This document shows, piece after piece, positions 17,872 to 29,469 of a stretch of 64,000 bases of DNA. A model generated the notes under the pieces. The model saw only the letters and a program-made list of their open reading frames with translations, did no database searches and was not told where the DNA came from. Source of the stretch: Salsipaludibacter albus (lineage in GTDB: Bacteria; Actinomycetota; Nitriliruptoria; Nitriliruptorales; Nitriliruptoraceae); contig NZ_JAHOPH010000020.1 of assembly GCF_019798055.1 (NCBI RefSeq), positions 1 to 64,000 on the forward strand. Direction: 5' to 3'. Both the position numbers and the translations under genes were made by a program. How positions within the stretch are numbered: position 1 is the first letter of the stretch; the number at the start of each line of letters is the position of its first letter.

Positions 17872-18552
17872 TCAGCTGGAGGTCTGCTTCGGCAGCTTCG
17901 GGATGATCCAGCCCAGGAAGGCCTCGGGGCTGCGGGTCTGGGTGTAGACCCGGCCCGGGCCGGTGAGCGTGACCACCAGGCCCTCGCCGCTGAGCACGGT
18001 CGACTTCCAGTTGCCGACCTTGCGGACCTCGTAGTTGACGCCCTCCTGCCAGCCGACCATGTGCCCGGTGTCCACGACGTACTGCTCGCCTGCCGCGAGG
18101 TCGATGGCCTGGATCGCGCCGTAGCTGGACACGACGAGGTCGCCGACCCCGGTGCACTTGAGCATCACCAGCCCCTCCCGGGAGAAGAACGTCTTGGAGC
18201 CACCCCACTTGCTGTCCACCTCGATCGTCTCGGGCGAGGCGAGGTAGGACCCCGACTGGAGGAAGACCGCATGGCTGCCGTCCATCGACCAGCTGACGAT
18301 GTCGCCCGGCAGGGGCGGGGCCACCCGCACGACCGAACCCGCCTCGCGGGCCGTGAAGGTGTTCATGAAGAAGGACTCGCCACCCAGGGAGCGACGCAGG
18401 CCCTTCATGAACCCACCCTGCGTGGAGGTCTCGATGTCCACGCTCGGCGACATCGCGACCATGGCCCCGGCCTCGGCCCGGACGGTCTCGCCGGCGTCGA
18501 GGTGGAGCGTGGCCTGGGCGAAGGCCGGTCCGTCGGTGATCTCGGTGCGCAT
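17872..18552 (-). CDS. AIM24 family protein
   Basis: A 226-residue all-beta protein of the AIM24 (TRAP-like double-stranded beta-helix) family, found in bacteria and mitochondria without a settled bacterial role. Characteristic segments are EAGAMVAMSPSVDIET, the GGFMKGLRRSLGGESFF motif, and GGSKTFFSREGLVMLK. There is no signal peptide or membrane segment. It has its own TAGGGT promoter and lies downstream of pirin on the same strand. Confidence 0.88.
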   Translation of the reverse strand: MRTEITDGPAFAQATLHLDAGETVRAEAGAMVAMSPSVDIETSTQGGFMKGLRRSLGGESFFMNTFTAREAGSVVRVAPPLPGDIVSWSMDGSHAVFLQSGSYLASPETIEVDSKWGGSKTFFSREGLVMLKCTGVGDLVVSSYGAIQAIDLAAGEQYVVDTGHMVGWQEGVNYEVRKVGNWKSTVLSGEGLVVTLTGPGRVYTQTRSPEAFLGWIIPKLPKQTSS

Positions 18553-19772: not shown

Positions 19773-21440
19773 TCAGCGCTGGAGGCCGAGTTCGTGGTCG
19801 TAGCACCAGGCCCAGTCCTCACCGGGCTCGAGCGACCGGATCACGGGATGGCCGGAGGTCTCCGCGTGGCGTGAGGCGTGCCGGTTGGGGGACTCGTCAC
19901 AACAGCCGATCCGGCCACAGCGGTTGCAGAACCGGAGCTGCTGCCAGCGGTCGCCGGCCGCCAGGCAGTCCGGGCACTCGCCGGTGGGACGCTCGGCCCA
20001 GGCCATCCCCGCCAGGTCCGCGCAGGAGCGACCGGCGGACGTCGAGTCCTCGGCCGCGCCACCGTCGGTCGTGGCGCGGTCCATCGGCAGCTCGACCCGG
20101 AAGACGGTCCGGCCCGGCTCGGACGACAGGGTCAGCTCGCCCTCGTGCTCGAGGACCAGGCGGTAGCTGAGGTACAGCCCCAACCCGGTCCCGACGCCGG
20201 GGGGCTTCGTGGTGAAGAAGGCGTCGAAGACCTGCTCCTGCACGGGCTCGGGCATGCCGGGGCCGTTGTCCTCCACCTCCACCACCAGGCCGCGCTCCAT
20301 GGCCCGGGTGCGCAGGGTCAGGCTCGGCACCCGGTCGGTCACCCCGGCCAGGGCATCACAGGCGTTGTCGACCAGGTTCGTCCACACCTGGTTGAGCTCG
20401 GTGCCGAACGCCGTGATCGTCGGCAGGTCGTCGTCGTAGTCCCGGACGAGGGTGACGTGGCGGGTCTTGTGGGCCAGCAGCACCAGGGTGTCCTCCAGTC
20501 CCCGGTGCACGTCGACGTCCTGGACGGGTGACTGGTCGAGGTAGGCGTAGGACTTGAGCGCCTTGACGATGCCGGACAACCGCCCGGCCGCCGTGGCGAT
20601 GACGGCGGCGGTGCGCCGGGTCGCCACGGCTGCGGCGGCCAGCCGCAGCAGGTCCTCCAGCTCCGGGCCGGTCGGCGGGAGCTGCCAGCCGTCCAACTCG
20701 TCCACCCCGATCCCCGCGTCCACCAGGTCGGGTGCCAGCTCCCAGGGTGCCGGCACCCCGCGATCGCCCAGCCAGTCCTCGACCTCCTCCTCGGCGTCGC
20801 TGCGTGCCAGGGCACTGGACGGGACCTCGGTCGGGTCGACCCCGAGCGTCACGAGGTCCGGCGCACCCTCGGGGGCGCCCCGCGCGACGTGCTCGAGCAG
20901 GCCGGCGACGTCGTCGGAGAGGCGGTGGGCCGCACGGGCGATCGCTGCCGCCGGGTTGTTGAGCTCGTGCGCGACGCCGGCCGTGAGCGTGCCGAGCTGG
21001 GCCATGCGCTCGGTCTGCTTCAACTGGTCGTTGGTGGCCTTCAGGCGGTGGACGAAGGTCTCGTAGATCGCCCGCGTCGCGCGTGGGCTGGCCTCGAGCA
21101 CCTGGTCGAGGGCCTGCCGCGGGATGGCCAGCAGGTCCACGGGCGTCCGGGCCCGGACCGAGGCCGTGCGCGGCTCCTGCTGGAGGAGGGCCATCTCCCC
21201 GATGACGTCACCGTCCTCGCGGACCGCCAGCAGCATGTCGCGACGCTCGCCGGCCTTGAGGATCTCCACCCGTCCGCGGGTCAGGACGTAGGCGTGCTCG
21301 CCCCAGTCCCCCTCGTGGAACAGGAACTCGCCGACGTCGAGGTGGACCGGGACGACGTCGTCACAGATCCGCTCGAGTTCGGTGTCGTCCATGCCCTCGA
21401 AGAGGCTGAGCGCTCGCAGGGTGTCGAACGCCGGGGACAT
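19773..21440 (-). CDS. histidine kinase with cyclic-nucleotide sensor and C-terminal UBP zinc finger
   Basis: A 555-residue soluble protein with three parts. Residues 8-125 are a cNMP-binding domain whose phosphate cassette reads GEMALLQQEPRTASVRA. Residues 140-455 are a histidine kinase: His158 in GVAHELNNPA, N-box NQVWTNLVDNA at 350-360, DNGPGMP at 391-397 and GVGTGLGLYLS. Residues 473-550 are a UBP-type zinc finger (C487-type cysteine pairs, FCNRCGRIGCC, NRHASRH, WAWCYDHE). There is no membrane segment, so it senses an internal ligand. The start overlaps the upstream fusion gene by 1 nt (TGATG). The partner receiver is very likely the one in that fusion. Confidence 0.9.
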   Translation of the reverse strand: MSPAFDTLRALSLFEGMDDTELERICDDVVPVHLDVGEFLFHEGDWGEHAYVLTRGRVEILKAGERRDMLLAVREDGDVIGEMALLQQEPRTASVRARTPVDLLAIPRQALDQVLEASPRATRAIYETFVHRLKATNDQLKQTERMAQLGTLTAGVAHELNNPAAAIARAAHRLSDDVAGLLEHVARGAPEGAPDLVTLGVDPTEVPSSALARSDAEEEVEDWLGDRGVPAPWELAPDLVDAGIGVDELDGWQLPPTGPELEDLLRLAAAAVATRRTAAVIATAAGRLSGIVKALKSYAYLDQSPVQDVDVHRGLEDTLVLLAHKTRHVTLVRDYDDDLPTITAFGTELNQVWTNLVDNACDALAGVTDRVPSLTLRTRAMERGLVVEVEDNGPGMPEPVQEQVFDAFFTTKPPGVGTGLGLYLSYRLVLEHEGELTLSSEPGRTVFRVELPMDRATTDGGAAEDSTSAGRSCADLAGMAWAERPTGECPDCLAAGDRWQQLRFCNRCGRIGCCDESPNRHASRHAETSGHPVIRSLEPGEDWAWCYDHELGLQR

Positions 21441-23101
21441 CAGGCCATCCCGAGGTAGCGGTGCACCATCGTGACACAGGTCGAGCCCTGGCCGACCGCG
21501 GACGCGACCCGCCGGATCGCCCCGTCGCGGACGTCACCGGCCGCGAACACGCCCGGGACGCTGGTCTCGAAGGGCAGCGGGTCGCGATCGACGGTCCAGC
21601 CGGCCGGGCGCGTCCCGTCGGCCAGCAGCTCGGGGCCGGTCAGGATGAAGCCCCGGGCGGTGCGCTCCACCACGTCCGCGACGAACCCGGTGTGCGGCAC
21701 GGCGCCGGCGAAGACGAACAGGCCCGCCCCGGCACGCTCCTGCGTGGCACCCGCCCGCCCGTCGCGGAGCACGACCCGCTCGAGCCGATCCCCACCGTGG
21801 ACCGAGACCACCTCCGTGTCGCAGAGCACCTCGACGTTGCCGAGCTCGGCGAGCTGGTCGACCAGGTAGCTCGACATCTTGTGGGCGAGCGAGTCCCCCC
21901 GCACGAGCAGCGTGACGGTGCGGGCGTGGCGTGCGAACCACACGGCGCCCTGGCCGGCCGAGTTCGCCCCGCCGACGACGAACACGTCCTCGCCGGCGAA
22001 CGCGGCCGCCTCGCTCAGGGTCGCGCCGTAGTAGACGCCCTTGCCCGTCAGGCGCTCGAAGCCCGGCACGTCCAGCGTGCGGGTGGTCATGCCCGATGCG
22101 ATGATCACCGCGTGCGAGGACAGCTCGGCGCCGTCACCGAGCACGATCGTGCGACGCGGCCCCTCCACGCGGAGCTGGACGACGTCGGCCGCGGTCAGGA
22201 TCTCGGCACCGAAGCGCACCGCCTGGGCGGTCGCGCGACGGGCGAGGTCCAGGCCACTGATGCCCTTGGGGAAGCCGAGGTAGTTCTCGATCCGTGAACT
22301 GCTCCCTGCCTGGCCACCCGTGGCCTGGCGCTCGACGACCGCGACCCGCAGTCCCTCGGTCGCGCCGTAGACCGCCGCCGCGAGGCCAGCCGGGCCGGCG
22401 CCGACCACGACCAGGTCGTAGAACGGCGCGGACGCCTGCACGTGCAGCCCGATCCGACCGGCGAGGTCACGTGGCTCTGGGGCCTCCAGGACGTCCCCGT
22501 CCGGCAGGACGACCACCGGCAGGGTGGGTTCGTCGGTCGGCATGGCCTCGAGCAACCGGGTCGCCTGCGGGTCACGCTCCACGTCCAGGAAGACGTACGG
22601 GACCTGGTTGCGGGCGAGGAAGTCCTTGACGTCGTGGGTGGCTGGGGACCACCGCATCCCCAGCACCCGGATGCCACCCTCGGCGGGTGGCCGGTTGGCC
22701 TGCCAGTCGTCCAGCAGGTCGTCGAGCACGGGGTACAGCGCCTCCTCGGGCGGGTCCCACGGCTTCAGCAGGTAGTGGTCGAGGTTGACCGTGTTGATCG
22801 ACGCGATCGCGGTGTCGGTGTCCGCGTACGCCGTCAGCAGGACCCGCTTGGCATCGGGGAACCGACCCGCCGACGCGAGCAGGAAGTCCGTGCCGGACAT
22901 GACCGGCATTCGCTGGTCGACCAGGAACAGCGCCACCTCCTCGCCCCGGAGGACGAGTTCCTCCACGGCCTCGAGCGCGCGGGCGCCACTGCTCGCCCCC
23001 ACGATCCGGTAGTGCTCGCGATAGTGACTCCGCAGGTCGGCCCGGACTTCGGCCAGCACCTGGGGGTCGTCATCGACCGCGATGATCGCCGGTCTGGCCA
23101 T
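21440..23101 (-). CDS. fused response regulator / thioredoxin-reductase-like flavoprotein without redox cysteines
   Basis: A 553-residue fusion. Residues 1-125 are a receiver with Asp62 (FLVDQRMPVMSG) and Lys113 (LLKPW). Residues 143-220 are a glutaredoxin-like segment in which the usual CxxC is replaced by SPAT. Residues 228-553 are a thioredoxin-reductase-like FAD/NADPH module (GAGPAG at 234-239, VGGANSAGQGA, GDVRDGAIR). The usual active-site disulfide position reads YGATLSEA, and the whole protein has only two cysteines, so disulfide reduction is improbable. The start overlaps the end of the metallophosphoesterase gene by 32 nt and the end overlaps the kinase gene, giving a tight operon. 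Confidence 0.9.
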   Translation of the reverse strand: MARPAIIAVDDDPQVLAEVRADLRSHYREHYRIVGASSGARALEAVEELVLRGEEVALFLVDQRMPVMSGTDFLLASAGRFPDAKRVLLTAYADTDTAIASINTVNLDHYLLKPWDPPEEALYPVLDDLLDDWQANRPPAEGGIRVLGMRWSPATHDVKDFLARNQVPYVFLDVERDPQATRLLEAMPTDEPTLPVVVLPDGDVLEAPEPRDLAGRIGLHVQASAPFYDLVVVGAGPAGLAAAVYGATEGLRVAVVERQATGGQAGSSSRIENYLGFPKGISGLDLARRATAQAVRFGAEILTAADVVQLRVEGPRRTIVLGDGAELSSHAVIIASGMTTRTLDVPGFERLTGKGVYYGATLSEAAAFAGEDVFVVGGANSAGQGAVWFARHARTVTLLVRGDSLAHKMSSYLVDQLAELGNVEVLCDTEVVSVHGGDRLERVVLRDGRAGATQERAGAGLFVFAGAVPHTGFVADVVERTARGFILTGPELLADGTRPAGWTVDRDPLPFETSVPGVFAAGDVRDGAIRRVASAVGQGSTCVTMVHRYLGMA

Positions 23102-23984
23102 CTCCAACCCCCACGTCCCCCGTGAACGAAACATAGTCGTGGTGCACGGCGCCCCCGCGCACGTCGACGACCCGGAATCCCGACGGGTCGTCCCCCAACG
23201 GGTAGCCGACCGGACCGGTCACGACCACCTCGAGCCCGTCGACGGTGCCTCCGCCGTTGCGATGCCAGTGACCGCACAGGTAGGTGGTCACGCCGTGCGC
23301 GACGAACAGGTCGACCAGCCCGGACCGCTGTGCCCGTGGCACGTTCCAGTAGCTGTCGGGCTCGTCGGGGTCACGCGTGAACAGCGGGTGGTGGCCACAC
23401 ACCACGACCGGACCCCCACGGTCACGAGCCCGGGCGAGGCGCTGCTCGAGCAGGTCCTGGTGGTGGGCGTGGGCCTCCGGGAGCTGCTCGGCATGGATCC
23501 ACACCGACGAGTTCACCACGATCACGGTGGTGTCGCCGTGGACCAGGTCGTAGTGGTCGGGGCCCCAGTGCTCGCGGTAGGCAACCAGGCTGGCGGGGCT
23601 GGGATCCCGGTCGGGCACGGCCACGTCGTGGTTGCCCGGGACCCAGTGCATCGGTGCCGACAGGCGCTCGGTCAGTCGCACCAGTTCGCGACGGGCCGCG
23701 TCGTCGTCCGGGTCGTCGAGCATGTCGCCACCCATGACCACGAACGCCGGCGACAGCTCGTTGGCCGCGTCGACCGCGAGGCGGTAGCGGGCCGCGTCCC
23801 AGGCGAACCCCTCGACGGACGGGACGGCCTCCACCTGCAGCCCGCGAGCGGCGTAGGCCGCCACGTCGTCGTCGTCCAGACCCGAGAAGCTGGCGTAGGC
23901 GCCGAACTGGCAGTCGGCCATGAACACGAATCGCAACGAGCTCCGGGCCGGCCCCCCGTCGGGCGTGGCCTCAGGGGTGGGCAT
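23070..23984 (-). CDS. calcineurin-like metallophosphoesterase
   Basis: A 304-residue phosphoesterase. Metal-binding motifs are VFMADCQFG (first Asp; the classical DxH appears as DCQ, similar to the CPPED1-type DPQ), VMGGDMLDD, PGNHD, VVCGHHPLF and LCGHWH. It is soluble. The sequence type is compatible with class III cyclic-nucleotide phosphodiesterases or protein phosphatases; a cNMP substrate is attractive because a cNMP-sensing kinase is encoded in the same unit, but this is inference. The ATG at 23984 overlaps the end of the UBP gene by 14 nt. Confidence 0.87.
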   Translation of the reverse strand: MPTPEATPDGGPARSSLRFVFMADCQFGAYASFSGLDDDDVAAYAARGLQVEAVPSVEGFAWDAARYRLAVDAANELSPAFVVMGGDMLDDPDDDAARRELVRLTERLSAPMHWVPGNHDVAVPDRDPSPASLVAYREHWGPDHYDLVHGDTTVIVVNSSVWIHAEQLPEAHAHHQDLLEQRLARARDRGGPVVVCGHHPLFTRDPDEPDSYWNVPRAQRSGLVDLFVAHGVTTYLCGHWHRNGGGTVDGLEVVVTGPVGYPLGDDPSGFRVVDVRGGAVHHDYVSFTGDVGVGDGQTGDHRGR

Positions 23985-24261
23985 ACGACGTGGCGTCGGG
24001 CATCGTGAACACGAGGTCGTCGTCGTAGCAGTACCACCAGTCCTCACCCGGCTCGTAGGACTGGATCAGCGCATGGCCCGCATCGTGGTGATGGGCGGTG
24101 GCGTGGCGGTTCGGCGAGCTGTCGCAGCAGCCCACGTGGCCACACACCCGGCACATGCGCAGGTGCAGCCACCGGGCACCGATGGCGAGACAGTCCTCGC
24201 AGCCGTCGCTGCTCGGACGTGCGTCGGTCACGTCGTCGAGGTGCGTGCAGGTGTCCGCCAT
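23971..24261 (-). CDS. stand-alone UBP-type zinc finger protein
   Basis: A 96-residue protein made almost entirely of one UBP zinc finger, the fold that in eukaryotes binds a free C-terminal Gly-Gly of ubiquitin. Ligand candidates are CTHLDD, GCEDC, MCRVCGHVGCC, and the His residues of NRHATAHHH; the aromatic pocket stretch WWYCYDDDL is retained. It is clearly related to the C-terminal finger of the histidine kinase encoded downstream. GGGGTG precedes the ATG. It is the first gene of the signalling cluster, behind a TAGGCT promoter. Confidence 0.9.
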   Translation of the reverse strand: MADTCTHLDDVTDARPSSDGCEDCLAIGARWLHLRMCRVCGHVGCCDSSPNRHATAHHHDAGHALIQSYEPGEDWWYCYDDDLVFTMPDATSYAHP

Positions 24262-24277: not shown

Positions 24278-24283
24278 AGCCTA
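24278..24283 (-). promoter_or_regulatory. -10 element TAGGCT heading the UBP/redox signalling cluster
   Basis: The hexamer overlaps the TAG stop of the upstream methyltransferase gene and is 16 nt from the UBP start codon, marking the start of an independent transcript with a very short leader. Confidence 0.5.
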
Positions 24284-25204
24284 CTCCGGAACGGCCCTCC
24301 CGGCGGCATCCACGTCGGAATCCACGTCGGACGCCGATCCAGCCCGATGCAACGTCAGGCGCACCTCCATCGCGGGCCGGGACGGGTCGGCCGGTGGATG
24401 CTCGAGGGCGACCCGTTCGAGCCCACCGACCCGGTAGGCGGCCAGCTCGGACGGCGCCTGGGCCCACGGGGGTCCCTGCCAGGACCTCGCCGCCTCCTCG
24501 GAGGTCGCCAGCAGGGTCGACACCAGCACCCAGCCCCCCGGGCCGGCCAGCGAGGACACCCCGACCATCGCGCGGTCACGCACCGTCGCCGGCAGCGACT
24601 GGACCGTGCGCACCTCCACGACCAGCCCGAACGCCCCGACCAGGTGGGCCGGCAGGTCGAGCAGGTCCGCGACCTGCCAGTCCACCGTGCCCGGCATCCC
24701 CGCCAGGTCCCGGGCGAATCGCTCCCGGGCCCACGTGACGGCGGTCGGTGAGACGTCGAACGCGGTCACCCGACAGCCGCGCCGGGCGAGCTCCACGGCG
24801 TCGTCGCCCAGCCCGCACCCGACCACCACGGCGTCGACGCCGGTGACGTCGAGACCGGGTTGGTCGAGCCACCCGACCACGTGGGGGTGCGGGGCGAGGC
24901 CGGCCCACGGCACGGCGGACGGATCGCCGGCGGCGTCGCGGTACAGGGGCTCGAACCACTCCGTCGCCCGGTCGCGCAGCACCGCGGCCGCCGCTGCGGT
25001 CACGTCGGGGGTCCCGCCATCGCCGGAGGCGCCACCGTCCCGCTGGCCGGGGGGCGCGTCGGCCAAGGCGCCCAGCGGGCCGTCGAGCCCGGACGACGGA
25101 TCGCCCCCGGGGTCACGACCCACCCCAGCAGGCGAGCCCCCGGGATCGTCCCGGGGGCTCGTGGTCTCGGTGGGCTCGTCGTCGGGCCCGGATCCGTCGG
25201 TCAT
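24281..25204 (-). CDS. class I SAM-dependent methyltransferase
   Basis: A 307-residue protein. The first 75 residues are Gly/Pro/Asp-rich and probably disordered; the Rossmann-type methyltransferase domain follows with motif I VVVGCGLGDDAVELARRG, the acidic strand-2 end VTAFDVSPTAV and WQVADLLDLP. The acceptor substrate is not predictable. The ATG overlaps the stop of ferredoxin copy A (ATGA), so it is translated with that ferredoxin, an unusual pairing. Confidence 0.82.
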   Translation of the reverse strand: MTDGSGPDDEPTETTSPRDDPGGSPAGVGRDPGGDPSSGLDGPLGALADAPPGQRDGGASGDGGTPDVTAAAAAVLRDRATEWFEPLYRDAAGDPSAVPWAGLAPHPHVVGWLDQPGLDVTGVDAVVVGCGLGDDAVELARRGCRVTAFDVSPTAVTWARERFARDLAGMPGTVDWQVADLLDLPAHLVGAFGLVVEVRTVQSLPATVRDRAMVGVSSLAGPGGWVLVSTLLATSEEAARSWQGPPWAQAPSELAAYRVGGLERVALEHPPADPSRPAMEVRLTLHRAGSASDVDSDVDAAGRAVPE

Positions 25205-25536
25205 GCCGGGGAGGCGATCTCCCACTCGGCGACCTTGGGGTGGTCGGCCCCCGTGGCGCCGACCTCGGCCGCACCGCCGGGTGAGCCCAGTCCGGTCATG
25301 TCGTCGTCGAAGAACTCGGCGTTCCAGGCGGTGAACTGCGACCACTCGTCCGGGACGTCGTCGGCGTAGAAGATCGCCTCGACCGGGCAGGCCGGCTCGC
25401 AGGCGGCGCAGTCGATGCACTCGCCGGGGTGGATGTAGAGGCTGCGGTCACCCTCGTAGATGCAGTCGACGGGGCATTCCTCGACGCAGGCCTTGTCCTT
25501 GACGTCGACACACGGTTCGGCGATGACGTAGGTCAT
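25201..25536 (-). CDS. 7Fe ferredoxin (copy A)
   Basis: A 111-residue FdxA-type ferredoxin with one 3Fe-4S and one 4Fe-4S site: the N-terminal CVDVKDKACVEECPVDC cysteines and the C-terminal CIDCAACEPACP. The acidic tail after residue 60 is typical of actinobacterial FdxA. It is a tandem paralogue of copy B 136 nt upstream; they differ in the second cluster loop (CAACEPAC against CGACEPVC) and at the C-terminus. It overlaps the methyltransferase gene, and its own TATCGT element lies upstream. Confidence 0.93.
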   Translation of the reverse strand: MTYVIAEPCVDVKDKACVEECPVDCIYEGDRSLYIHPGECIDCAACEPACPVEAIFYADDVPDEWSQFTAWNAEFFDDDMTGLGSPGGAAEVGATGADHPKVAEWEIASPA

Positions 25537-25606
25537 GGGGTGGTCCTTGGAGGCATCGGGGCCGGAATCGGCTGGCGTCGGGTGGTCCCGGTCGTGCTGG
25601 GAGGCA

Positions 25607-25612
25607 ACGATA
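25607..25612 (-). promoter_or_regulatory. -10 element TATCGT for ferredoxin copy A
   Basis: It sits 70 nt before the ATG at 25536, between the two ferredoxin genes, allowing separate expression of copy A and the methyltransferase. Confidence 0.35.
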
Positions 25613-25672
25613 CCGGCTGGTGAACTCCCGCCACCAGCCGACGGGACCCGGGTGCGACCGGAGGTCGCGTGG

Positions 25673-25996
25673 TCACATCTCCCAGTCGGCGATCTTGGGA
25701 TGGTCGACGTCGACCGCGCCGACACCCGCGTAGCCACCGGGCGACCCCAGGCCCGACACGGAGTCCTCGAAGAACTCGGCGTTGATCGGCGTGAACTCGT
25801 CCCACTCGTCGGGGACGTCGTCCTCGTAGAAGATCGCCTCGACCGGGCAGACCGGCTCGCAGGCGCCGCAGTCGATGCACTCCTCGGGGTGGATGTAGAG
25901 CATCCGTGGCCCCTCGTAGATGCAGTCGACGGGGCACTCCTCGATGCAGGCCTTGTCCTTGACGTCGATGCACGGTTCCGCGATCGTGTAGGTCAT
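25673..25996 (-). CDS. 7Fe ferredoxin (copy B)
   Basis: A 107-residue FdxA-type ferredoxin with the cysteine pattern CIDVKDKACIEECPVDC and CIDCGACEPVCP, serving as a low-potential electron carrier. Both copies begin MTY-IAEPC and keep CPVDCIYEG, VEAIFY, DVPDEW and GLGSPGG, so they arose by tandem duplication. Copy B is the more conventional of the two. Candidate redox partners in the window include the FrhB-like protein and 2-oxoacid oxidation, without direct evidence. Confidence 0.93.
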   Translation of the reverse strand: MTYTIAEPCIDVKDKACIEECPVDCIYEGPRMLYIHPEECIDCGACEPVCPVEAIFYEDDVPDEWDEFTPINAEFFEDSVSGLGSPGGYAGVGAVDVDHPKIADWEM

Positions 25997-26059
25997 TGTG
26001 GGGACGTCCTCCTGCTGGTCCGGCGCTCCGCCGGCGCTCGTGGCGGTACGGGAGTCCCG

Positions 26060-26065
26060 ACAGTA
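26060..26065 (-). promoter_or_regulatory. -10 element TACTGT for ferredoxin copy B
   Basis: It lies 63 nt before the ATG at 25996, in the divergent gap shared with ppk1. Confidence 0.4.
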
Positions 26066-26162
26066 GCGAAGACCGGCACGGATCGCGGCCAGCACCGACC
26101 CCGCCACCCCGTCCCGTCGGTGGGCCCGGCCGGCCGTCCACCCGGCCCTCGGTGACAGGCTC

Positions 26163-26251: not shown

Positions 26252-28462
26252 ATGACCGAGCAGTCCTCCACCACCACGACCCCCGCCGACGTGGTCACCG
26301 ACCCACCCCCGGGGTCGTCGGAGCGTCCGTCGCCCGAGGGGGTCCCGACCCGCCACGGGCGCACGGTTCGCGACGGTCACGAGGGCACGCCCACGTCGCG
26401 CGCGGTCCTGGCCGACCACCCCGACATCGACGAGCCCCGGCGCTACCTCAATCGTGAACTGACCTGGCTGTCGTTCAACGAGCGGGTCCTGGCGCTGGCC
26501 GAACGCGACGACCTCCCCCTGCTGGAGCGCGTGAAGTTCCTGGCGATCTTCACCACCAACTTCGACGAGTTCTTCCAGGTCCGGGTCGCCGGCCTGATGG
26601 ACCAGGTGGCCGCCGGGCGCTCGACGCCACCGCCCGACGGCATGTCCCCCAGCCAGCAGCTCACCGCGATCCGCGCCTACGCGGGCGAGCTGGCCGAGCG
26701 CCAGACCACGATCTTCCACGACCAGGTCAGCCCGGCGCTGGACGCCGAGGGCATCCGCTACTCCGACTGGAGCTCGCTGGACGACGACGACCGGCGCTAC
26801 CTGGTGTCGGCCTTCGAGGAACGGGTCTTCCCGGTCCTGACCCCGCTGGCCGTCGACCCGGTCCATCCCTTCCCCTACATCTCCAATCTGTCGCTGAACC
26901 TGGCCGTCGTGGTCCGCAACCCGTCCGACCACACCACCCACTTCGCCCGTGTCAAGGTCCCGCCGATCCTGCCCCGGTTCGTCGTCATGCCCGACGGCGA
27001 GCGGTTCGTCCCGCTCGAGCAGGTGATCGCCGCCCACCTCGACCGGCTGTTCCCCGGTCACGAGATCGTCGACCACCACCTGTTCCGGGTCACCCGCAAC
27101 GCCGACCTGGAGGTCGAGGAGGACGAGGCCGACGACCTGATGATGGCGATCGAGTCCGAGCTGACCCGGCGGCGCTTCGGCCGTGTCGTGCGCCTCGAGA
27201 TCGAGCCGTCCATCCCCGGCGACATCCTCAACCTGCTGATGCGCGAGATGGACATCGCCGACGAGCAGGTCGACAAGATCCGTGGCCCGCTGGGGCTGGA
27301 CGGGCTGATGAGCCTGTACGACCTCGAGCGGTCCGACCTCAAGTACAAGCCCTACAAGACCGCCGTCCCACCGGCACTGGGCAAGTCCGCGACCGGCAGC
27401 ATCTTCTCGTGCATCCGCCGCGGCGACATCCTCGTGCACCACCCCTACGACTCGTTCTCGCGCACCGTCCAGCGCTTCGTCGAGACCGCCGCCCGGGACC
27501 CACATGTCCTGGCGATCAAGATGACCCTGTACCGGACGTCGCCGGACTCCCCGATCGTCAACGCCCTGATCAAGGCGGCCGAGGCCGGGAAGCAGGTGGT
27601 GGCCCTGGTCGAGCTCAAGGCCCGCTTCGACGAGGAGCGCAACATCGAGTGGGCTCGCACGCTGGAGGAGGTCGGGGTCCACGTCACCTACGGCGTGGCC
27701 GGCCTCAAGACCCACACCAAGATCGCCATGGTGGTGCGGCAGGAACACGGGCGGGTGGTGCGCTACGCCCACGTGGGCACGGGCAACTACAACGACAAGA
27801 CCGCCCGGATCTACGAGGACGTCGGGCTGCTCACCAACGACGCCGCGGTCGGGGCGGACCTCACCGAGCTGTTCAACGTCATGACCGGCTACGGGCGCCA
27901 GCGGTCCTACCGCCGGCTGGTGACCGCGCCGACCACCTTCCGCTCCGAGATCCTGCGCCTGATCCGGCGCGAGTCCCGCGCCGAACGTGGCCGGATCGTG
28001 TTGAAGATGAACAGCCTGGTCGACGCGGAGATGATCGACGCGCTCTACGAGGCGTCGCAGGCGGGCACGCCCGTTGACCTGGTCGTGCGCGGGATCTGCT
28101 GCCTGCGGGCCGGGGTGCCGGGGCTGTCGGACAACATCCGGGTCCGGTCGCTGGTCGGGCGCTACCTCGAGCACTCCCGCATCTACGCCTTCGGCGTGCC
28201 GGGCGACAACGTCGACGTGCTGATCGGGTCCGGCGACCTGATGCCGCGCAACCTCAACCGCCGGATCGAGGCGCTGATCCCGATCCGCGAGGCGGCCCTC
28301 AAGACCCAGCTGCTCGACCTGCTCGACCTGGTGCTGGCCGACGACGTCCTGGCCTGGGAGCAGTTCCCCGACGGCTCGTGGTCCCGGGTGCCCACGGTCG
28401 ACGGCATCAACGCCCAGGAGCGGTTGCAGGAGCTCGCCCACACCCGGGCTGCCGACGACTGA
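26252..28462 (+). CDS. ppk1: polyphosphate kinase 1
   Basis: A 736-residue enzyme that reversibly transfers the ATP gamma-phosphate to inorganic polyphosphate. The family regions are complete: the start of the N domain LNRELTWLSFNERVLALA, the FHPYD-like motif HHPYDSFS, and the autophosphorylated histidine segment RYAHVGTGNYNDKTARIY, plus a final C-terminal PLD-like domain. The first 60 residues are an unstructured Thr/Pro-rich extension. It is followed by mutT1, the mycobacterial arrangement; a Ppx/GppA phosphatase is encoded 6 kb away. Confidence 0.97.
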   Translation: MTEQSSTTTTPADVVTDPPPGSSERPSPEGVPTRHGRTVRDGHEGTPTSRAVLADHPDIDEPRRYLNRELTWLSFNERVLALAERDDLPLLERVKFLAIFTTNFDEFFQVRVAGLMDQVAAGRSTPPPDGMSPSQQLTAIRAYAGELAERQTTIFHDQVSPALDAEGIRYSDWSSLDDDDRRYLVSAFEERVFPVLTPLAVDPVHPFPYISNLSLNLAVVVRNPSDHTTHFARVKVPPILPRFVVMPDGERFVPLEQVIAAHLDRLFPGHEIVDHHLFRVTRNADLEVEEDEADDLMMAIESELTRRRFGRVVRLEIEPSIPGDILNLLMREMDIADEQVDKIRGPLGLDGLMSLYDLERSDLKYKPYKTAVPPALGKSATGSIFSCIRRGDILVHHPYDSFSRTVQRFVETAARDPHVLAIKMTLYRTSPDSPIVNALIKAAEAGKQVVALVELKARFDEERNIEWARTLEEVGVHVTYGVAGLKTHTKIAMVVRQEHGRVVRYAHVGTGNYNDKTARIYEDVGLLTNDAAVGADLTELFNVMTGYGRQRSYRRLVTAPTTFRSEILRLIRRESRAERGRIVLKMNSLVDAEMIDALYEASQAGTPVDLVVRGICCLRAGVPGLSDNIRVRSLVGRYLEHSRIYAFGVPGDNVDVLIGSGDLMPRNLNRRIEALIPIREAALKTQLLDLLDLVLADDVLAWEQFPDGSWSRVPTVDGINAQERLQELAHTRAADD

Positions 28463-28464
28463 GT

Positions 28465-28503
28465 CGGGCCTCGCCGGGGCCGAGCGGGGCCGCCCCGAGC
28501 CCG
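28465..28503 (+). terminator. nested GC hairpin after ppk1
   Basis: CGGGC (28465) pairs with GCCCG (28499-28503), enclosing GGGGC (28476) paired with GCCCC (28492). It lies between the ppk1 stop and the mutT1 promoter. Confidence 0.35.
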
Positions 28504-28538
28504 TGGTCGTCCGGAGGCTGTCGACCTGGCGGCTCCGC

Positions 28539-28544
28539 TAGCGT
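28539..28544 (+). promoter_or_regulatory. -10 element TAGCGT for mutT1
   Basis: It is 55 nt before the ATG at 28600 and follows the hairpin after ppk1, so mutT1 can be expressed separately. Confidence 0.4.
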
Positions 28545-28599
28545 GTGCTCGCGCGCACCGATGCACCGAGGCACCGACCCCTCGACAGGATCCCCCACG

Positions 28600-29469
28600 A
28601 TGACCAGTTCGCCCGTCCTCGCCGCCGGTGGCGTGGTCGTGCGCCAGCGGGGCAGGGGCCGCGAGGTGCTGGTCGTCCACCGGCCGTCCTACGACGACTG
28701 GTCGCTGCCCAAGGGCAAGCTCGACCGGGGCGAGGACCTGCCGGCAGCCGCGCTGCGCGAGGTGCACGAGGAGACCGGGGTCCACGCACGGCTGGGTGCG
28801 CACCTGGGCGCGATCGACTACCGCGACCGCAAGGGCCGACCCAAGCGGGTGCACTGGTGGGCCATGAGCCCGACCGACATCGAGTCGCGCGAGCCCGACC
28901 GCGAGGTCGACGAGGTGGCCTGGCTGCCGATCGACAAGGCGCAGCGCCGGCTCACCTACCGCACCGACCGCGCGACCCTGGCCACGGCCCTGGAGGATCG
29001 CACCAGCCTGCTGATCCTGCGCCACGCCCACGCCGGCAAGCGTGGCACGGTCGATCCGGACGAGGATCGCCCGCTGTCCAAGAAGGGCAAGAAGCAACGC
29101 AAGAAGCTCGTCACGCAGCTCGACGGCCACCGCATCGACATGATCGTGACCTCGCCGTACACGCGGTGCCGCCAGTCCGTCACGAAGCTGGCCAAGGCAC
29201 GCGGCCTGGACGTCGTCGTCGACGAGCGGCTCGCCGAGGAGACCCCGTTGGCCCAGGTCCTCGAACTCGTCGACGAGTTGCCCGCGGCCGCGCTGATCTG
29301 CAGCCACGGCGACGTCATCGGGGATCTCGTCAGCCGCCTGTCGGCGGTGGCCGAGACGCCCTTGGACGCCGGGTTCGACCACCTGCGCTGGGAGAAGGGC
29401 GCCACGTGGTGGGTGACGCTGGCCGGCCACCGCCCCCTCGCCGCCCGGTACCTCCCACCCCCCACCTGA
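28600..29469 (+). CDS. mutT1: bifunctional Nudix hydrolase / histidine phosphatase (MutT1-like)
   Basis: A 289-residue two-domain protein. Residues 1-140 hold the Nudix box GKLDRGEDLPAAALREVHEE; residues 145-289 are a histidine-phosphatase domain starting LLILRHAHAGKRG, with SPYTRCRQS and ICSHGDV. The same architecture and the position next to ppk1 occur in mycobacterial MutT1, which degrades 8-oxo-GTP/dGTP and dinucleoside polyphosphates. AGGA precedes the ATG. It should act in nucleotide-pool sanitation. Confidence 0.92.
   Translation: MTSSPVLAAGGVVVRQRGRGREVLVVHRPSYDDWSLPKGKLDRGEDLPAAALREVHEETGVHARLGAHLGAIDYRDRKGRPKRVHWWAMSPTDIESREPDREVDEVAWLPIDKAQRRLTYRTDRATLATALEDRTSLLILRHAHAGKRGTVDPDEDRPLSKKGKKQRKKLVTQLDGHRIDMIVTSPYTRCRQSVTKLAKARGLDVVVDERLAEETPLAQVLELVDELPAAALICSHGDVIGDLVSRLSAVAETPLDAGFDHLRWEKGATWWVTLAGHRPLAARYLPPPT

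Follow-up and report, generated by a model that had tools for sequence, protein, structure and literature searches.

What kind of signaling might be served by four overlapping genes that together encode two UBP-type zinc fingers, a metallophosphoesterase, a flavoprotein with an attached receiver domain, and a histidine kinase with a cyclic-nucleotide-binding domain? Such a cluster occupies positions 19,773 to 24,261 of a 64,000-nucleotide stretch of Salsipaludibacter albus DNA (contig NZ_JAHOPH010000020.1, positions 1 to 64,000; here called the window), and an earlier description made without database searches (the sequence-only reading) had taken it for a phosphorelay controlled by a cyclic nucleotide, with the flavoprotein as output. 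We propose that the cluster is probably an actinobacterial member of the bacterial ZF-UBP/cyclic nucleotide monophosphate (cNMP)/flavoprotein signaling system, acting by the mechanism set out below. As judged from sequence comparisons, the core of the system is the flavoprotein, with its receiver, thioredoxin-like and thioredoxin reductase (TrxR)-like parts, together with an adjacent histidine kinase, a pair conserved across phyla.

Conservation of the kinase-flavoprotein pair

When the flavoprotein was used as query against one genome per species, at least 80 loci were recovered as its best-scoring relatives, from cyanobacteria, Chloroflexi, actinobacteria, Acidobacteria, Verrucomicrobia, Gemmatimonadetes, proteobacteria, and thaumarchaea. 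A kinase of the same family lay on the same strand within 400 bp of the flavoprotein gene in 59 of 80 relatives, and in 49 of the 67 loci for which each flank covered 1.6 kb or more. Of the 80 fetched stretches, 20 contained a UBP gene. Among the 66 genomes examined from the window's own class, the UBP family was found in 11 and the flavoprotein in 18; both occurred in 8, UBP only in 3, the flavoprotein only in 10, and neither in 45 (Fisher p=0.0008, a value weakened by shared ancestry). The pattern was patchy, with many near relatives, including the one other genome of the genus, having neither UBP nor flavoprotein. The sequence-only reading had named the absence of a conserved neighborhood as its refutation, and the linkage was upheld. 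Because the arrangement recurs in many phyla and in the window's own class, we concluded from these comparisons that it is beyond chance. Public plasmid records name the flavoprotein just "FAD-dependent oxidoreductase".

To ask what the flavoprotein has retained and lost, we aligned 81 sequences. The receiver residues D21, D22, D73, T101, and K124 were invariant in all 81, as were the FAD glycines, and the FAD and NAD motifs were retained. None of the 81 had the TrxR-type CxxC in the NAD(P)H domain, where the site read YGA[A/T] or close Cys-free variants. Likewise, neither a CxxC nor a CxxS glutaredoxin active site was found in the glutaredoxin-like domain of the aligned sequences, which read W-S-P-x-S/T-H instead, with the cis-proline of the fold (P206) invariant; the flavoprotein paralogues checked had no CxxC at all. 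Alignments to Protein Data Bank (PDB) entries showed the departure from true TrxR sequences directly, and the TIGR01292 score, 222 bits, fell short of the cut-off of 343. With both CxxC sites missing throughout the family, thiol chemistry of the TrxR or glutaredoxin kind was rejected, and the word "redox" that had been applied to the cluster is not supported in the thiol sense. An AlphaFold model of the flavoprotein (mean predicted local distance difference test score, pLDDT, 86.5) matched TrxR structures and AhpF in Foldseek searches; for Lactococcus TrxR it fitted the FR-labelled structure 5mh4 (TMt 0.92) better than the FO-labelled 5mjk (0.62), which, as a prediction, is consistent with NAD(P)H reducing FAD and the electrons then going on to a further acceptor.

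Some paralogues were seen apart from the kinase. A second TrxR-like protein encoded in the same genome (L125, G000:C23:214624-216258) is Cys-free and 39% identical, has a receiver-like N-terminus undetected by Pfam, and has no adjacent kinase of this family. Two further paralogues (L138, L139), with receiver-like N-termini below Pfam detection, lie directly beside UBP genes, with no kinase of this family within the stretch examined.

The N-terminal domain of the kinase had protein kinase A (PKA) RI-alpha as its best PDB match, and its cNMP cassette was intact (GEMALL...PRTASVRA; full phosphate-binding cassette GEMALLQQEPRTASVRA), including E82 and R91, so that by its cassette residues the domain is predicted to be competent for binding. 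Three domains of the class III cyclase type are encoded in the genome. The cassette was also retained in some two dozen related kinases, for the most part from actinobacteria and Chloroflexi; the cyanobacterial and verrucomicrobial kinases have lost the cassette arginine, and in other relatives the cNMP domain is replaced by a receiver or by receiver-PAS-PAS. As the kinase inputs vary in this way, the kinase-flavoprotein pair would be the core and the cyclic nucleotide one of several inputs. In an alignment of 34 kinases adjacent to flavoprotein genes, H158, E159, N161, N162, and P163 were conserved in all 34; the H, N, and G boxes were present, with N355/N359, D391, G393, and G395 conserved. 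Between the two DHp helices lies a family-specific insert (about residues 186-270, with conserved W223, L224, and W233) which places H158 and N355 197 residues apart and fits the partial HisKA match (18.1 bits, cut-off 26.9). The invariant receiver, the intact cNMP pocket, and the adjacency of kinase and flavoprotein across phyla thus support, at the level of sequence, the earlier idea of a cNMP-gated two-component pair with the flavoprotein as output.

Phosphoesterase and UBP fingers

The metallophosphoesterase has the complete class III phosphodiesterase motif D..GD..GNH[E/D]..H..GHxH (PMC8366450), in the form D24...GD86-87...GNHD117-120...H198...GHWH238-241; motif I was D-x-Q in all four aligned members. 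Of 296 genomes sampled from the phylum, 4 had this subfamily, and in two of the three other genomes it adjoined the flavoprotein gene, which it abutted in the order phosphoesterase-flavoprotein-kinase (G056) and phosphoesterase-flavoprotein-kinase-UBP (G106); in the third (G297) it lay beside a small cNMP-binding protein. No solved structure resembled it by sequence, and it scored 28 bits against NCBIfam CpdA, for which the cut-off is 225. Foldseek matches of its model included Rv0805, GpdQ, and purple acid phosphatases; since the model was of modest quality (pLDDT 69), Foldseek was unable to separate phosphodiesterase from phosphatase.

Both UBP fingers fall in a bacterial subfamily best represented among solved structures by 2IDA, a full-length match, which is a zf-UBP protein of Rhodopseudomonas palustris. 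It was deposited as a hypothetical protein, differs from the pair here in being stand-alone only, and we know of no functional data for it. The zinc ligands (C21, C24, C37, C40, C45, H53, H57, and H63) and parts of the aromatic pocket were conserved. In eukaryotic UBP fingers an arginine, R1155 in HDAC6 and R221 in USP5, contacts the C-terminal carboxylate. When the bacterial motif after the zinc cysteine, CCDSS, was aligned against CGRY of HDAC6, no counterpart of this arginine was found at that site; the bacterial fingers had D47/S48 instead, with D47 in 35 of 36. The finger of the kinase was nearest to separate UBP genes downstream of kinases in other actinobacteria (L085 and L149), and for this reason a gene fusion is its most likely origin; the UBP gene at the upstream end of the cluster is a distinct copy, the second of the two. 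Another cNMP kinase (L055) also carries a fused finger, a finger was found beside a cNMP-TrxR fusion, and fingers were fused C-terminally to Na+/H+ exchanger-TrkA_N proteins and to an LtrA membrane protein (L142:4441-6597, L130:9045-11111, L095, L097). These last fusions suggest membrane targets for an adaptor, which is probably what the UBP fingers are, and is the simplest role common to them.

Proposed mechanism and its alternatives

We propose that a cyclic nucleotide made by the class III cyclases encoded elsewhere in the genome would bind the PKA-like N-terminal domain of the kinase and alter autophosphorylation at H158, and that phosphate would then move to D73 of the flavoprotein receiver. 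Phosphorylation would switch the flavoprotein, in which NAD(P)H would pass electrons to FAD, and FAD to a further acceptor, not via a thioredoxin-type disulphide. The adjacent metallophosphoesterase would reset the switch, most likely by hydrolyzing the cyclic nucleotide. The UBP fingers would serve as zinc-bound protein-interaction adaptors joining kinase, flavoprotein, and possibly membrane targets, without reading ubiquitin-like C-termini. The domain set, the gene linkages including that of the phosphoesterase, the phosphorelay and cNMP-pocket residues, and the absence of both thiol sites are features of the genes themselves; from these we infer the biochemical steps, the electron acceptor, and the UBP partner. 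In a more specific form, which we offer tentatively, a phosphorylation-switched flavoenzyme without thiol sites would pass NAD(P)H electrons onward, a kinase family with a DHp insert and exchangeable inputs would drive it, and in this branch a co-encoded cyclic-nucleotide phosphodiesterase would close the loop. If this is true, "redox signaling" here would mean an NAD(P)H/flavin switch under cyclic-nucleotide control, and not thiol chemistry.

Several observations weigh against the proposal. By sequence, cyclic-nucleotide gating is lineage-specific, since in many relatives the cNMP pocket is degenerate or the inputs are of the PAS/receiver kind; the UBP finger is not obligatory, because only 20 of the 80 relatives have a UBP gene nearby; and these 80 loci, being the top scorers for a single query, do not sample the family evenly. 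In addition, the class III motif is common to protein phosphatases, as in human CPPED1, which has the motif yet dephosphorylates proteins (PMC8366450), and it is for this reason that cyclic-nucleotide hydrolysis is put no higher than most likely for the phosphoesterase. That this enzyme is instead a CPPED1-like protein phosphatase, or acts on some other phosphodiester, would also suit the appearance of purple acid phosphatases and GpdQ besides Rv0805 among the matches of its low-confidence model, but it accompanies kinases with intact cNMP pockets in two genomes and a cNMP-binding protein in the third, and we consider these other activities rather unlikely, if still a serious competitor.

The signal might also run from flavin to kinase, the flavoprotein being mainly a redox sensor that governs the receiver, or the attached kinase, through its NAD(P)H/FAD state. 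Loss of the thiol sites with retention of the FAD and NAD motifs suits a sensor, and a kinase with input domains of its own could integrate both signals. However, a receiver that is invariant and phosphorylatable normally acts downstream of a kinase, and the kinase inputs vary by lineage while the flavoprotein is constant, as expected of a common output, so that we regard this direction of flow as unlikely. Far less probable is the idea, raised in the sequence-only reading, that the UBP fingers recognize a small modifier such as Pup by its free C-terminus. Pup is encoded in the Salsipaludibacter albus genome, and the conserved zinc ligands and aromatic residues would be in keeping with such binding; in contrast, the pocket arginine is replaced, and when 12 other genomes carrying both flavoprotein and UBP were checked, Pup went undetected in 9, including cyanobacteria, Chloroflexi, and a betaproteobacterium. 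Neither a free C-terminus in general nor Pup in particular was therefore borne out as the ligand. Least probable of all, to the point of being negligible, is that the neighborhood is an accidental run of unrelated genes. The pirin, methyltransferase, and ferredoxin genes beside the cluster are indeed not conserved neighbors, but distant genomes again have the kinase-flavoprotein pair, UBP, and phosphoesterase together and in the same order, and for the four core genes this recurrence refutes the explanation.

Locus layout and related systems

The coordinates of the cluster and its domains are given in Table 1.

Table 1. Genes, domains, and one sequence motif of the cluster, in window positions
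Feature	Positions	Strand	Basis
UBP-type zinc finger protein, stand-alone, bacterial, 96 aa	23971..24261	-	PF02148 41.1 bits; closest solved structure 2IDA, E=7e-32
Metallophosphoesterase, 304 aa, complete class III phosphodiesterase motif	23070..23984	-	PF00149; motif per PMC8366450
Receiver/thioredoxin-like/TrxR-like flavoprotein, 564 aa	21440..23134	-	Pfam; 81-sequence alignment; AlphaFold model mean pLDDT 86.5
Flavoprotein receiver domain	22745..23092	-	PF00072; D21, D22, D73, T101, K124 invariant
Flavoprotein thioredoxin/glutaredoxin-like domain, without catalytic CxxC	22445..22672	-	Glutaredoxin below cut-off; alignment; predicted secondary structure
Flavoprotein TrxR-like FAD/NAD(P)H domain, with YGA[A/T] at the CxxC position	21449..22423	-	PF07992; PDB alignments; 81-sequence alignment; Foldseek TMt 0.92 to 5mh4
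cNMP-binding/histidine kinase/UBP finger fusion, 555 aa	19773..21440	-	Pfam; PDB search
Kinase cyclic-nucleotide-binding domain, intact phosphate-binding cassette GEMALLQQEPRTASVRA (E82, R91)	21039..21407	-	PF00027 77 bits; closest PKA RI-alpha
Histidine kinase core: H158, N355/N359, G boxes, insert ~186-270	20073..21023	-	HATPase_c; alignment of 34 adjacent kinases
Kinase C-terminal UBP finger	19773..20027	-	PF02148 40.4 bits; 57% identity to L085 and L149
TAGGCT: TAG stop codon of upstream methyltransferase + GCT	24278..24283	-	Direct reading

The coordinates and Pfam domains confirmed four overlapping genes on a single strand, with overlaps between consecutive genes of 14 nt, 32-65 nt, and 1 nt; the start of the flavoprotein is probably 23101 and not 23134, because its relatives start at about residue 12. 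Above their Pfam cut-offs were zf-UBP (twice), Metallophos, Response_reg, Pyr_redox_2, cNMP_binding, and HATPase_c; Glutaredoxin, like HisKA, fell below (20.7 bits, cut-off 22.9). The single promoter that had been assigned to TAGGCT, which ends 17 nt ahead of the UBP start codon, could not be sustained; its TAG is a stop codon, and the cluster region yielded neither a sigma-70-like promoter nor a terminator. An S-adenosylmethionine (SAM) methyltransferase gene (25204-24281, minus strand) precedes the UBP gene with a 19-nt gap, and its start overlaps by ATGA one of two ferredoxin genes further upstream (25201-26107, minus strand). Since these genes run into the cluster, the transcription unit may begin further upstream, and they may share its transcript. 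Pirin (19718-18657), suggested earlier as the end of the cluster, is on the same minus strand 54 nt downstream of the kinase gene, and its membership is unsupported because it was near none of the 80 flavoprotein relatives nor of the loci in the window's class. Downstream of pirin is an AIM24 (TIGR00266) family protein (17872-18552, minus strand). The methyltransferase, ferredoxins, and AIM24 were not conserved neighbors of the flavoprotein in relatives, and these and pirin were rejected as parts of the system. On the plus strand, 26252-29469 holds a divergent polyphosphate kinase gene and then a NUDIX/phosphohistidine-phosphatase-like (SixA-type) gene, both assigned by reading of the sequence.

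Individual components resemble known proteins in part. Like low-molecular-weight thioredoxin reductase and AhpF, the flavoprotein has the FAD and NAD(P)H fold, with a thioredoxin fold followed by the reductase as in AhpF; unlike them, it lacks CxxC in both the reductase and thioredoxin-like parts and has an N-terminal receiver. TrxR-fold ferredoxin-NADP reductases (for example 3lzw and 3ab1), both detected as relatives and scoring below true TrxR, share the TrxR-like fold without an internal disulphide; here, in contrast, a receiver is fused and the upstream ferredoxin genes are not conserved neighbors. To our knowledge, response regulators of the enzyme-output type appear rarely to have a redox enzyme in that role. 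The phosphoesterase shares the complete signature motif of the class III cNMP phosphodiesterases Rv0805 and CpdA and of CPPED1, and differs in its D-x-Q motif I and in a CpdA score far below cut-off.

The closest precedent is a system for which bacterial ZF-UBP domains were reportedly placed, in the abstract of a 2011 article by Burroughs, Iyer and Aravind, in novel cyclic nucleotide-dependent redox signaling. ZF-UBP, a cNMP-binding domain, a histidine kinase, and a receiver-TrxR flavoprotein are reportedly encoded together there, as they are here, whereas here one UBP finger is fused to the kinase, the second is stand-alone, and a phosphoesterase is included. The window has both a ZF-UBP gene and a ZF-UBP fusion linked to a TrxR-like flavoprotein, as expected of that system, and the earlier statement that no defined pathway combining these components was known is at odds with the reported proposal. 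The cluster would thus belong to a class of system that comparative genomics had put forward before, and because its domain set matches that proposal it has little novelty as such. The article (Mol Biosyst 7:2261, doi 10.1039/c1mb05061c) is reference 9 of PMC4506424. The literature searched contained no experimental study of a ZF-UBP/kinase/flavoprotein system. What the present analysis adds is the absence of both thiol sites throughout the family, cNMP gating that differs by lineage together with inputs that can be exchanged, the class III phosphoesterase linked to the system, the DHp insert of the kinase, and evidence against the idea of Pup or C-terminus reading. The system spans actinobacteria, cyanobacteria, Chloroflexi, Acidobacteria, Verrucomicrobia, and thaumarchaea, and with an invariant receiver, missing cysteines, an intact cNMP pocket, and a linked phosphoesterase the vague label of redox signaling becomes a set of testable biochemical predictions.

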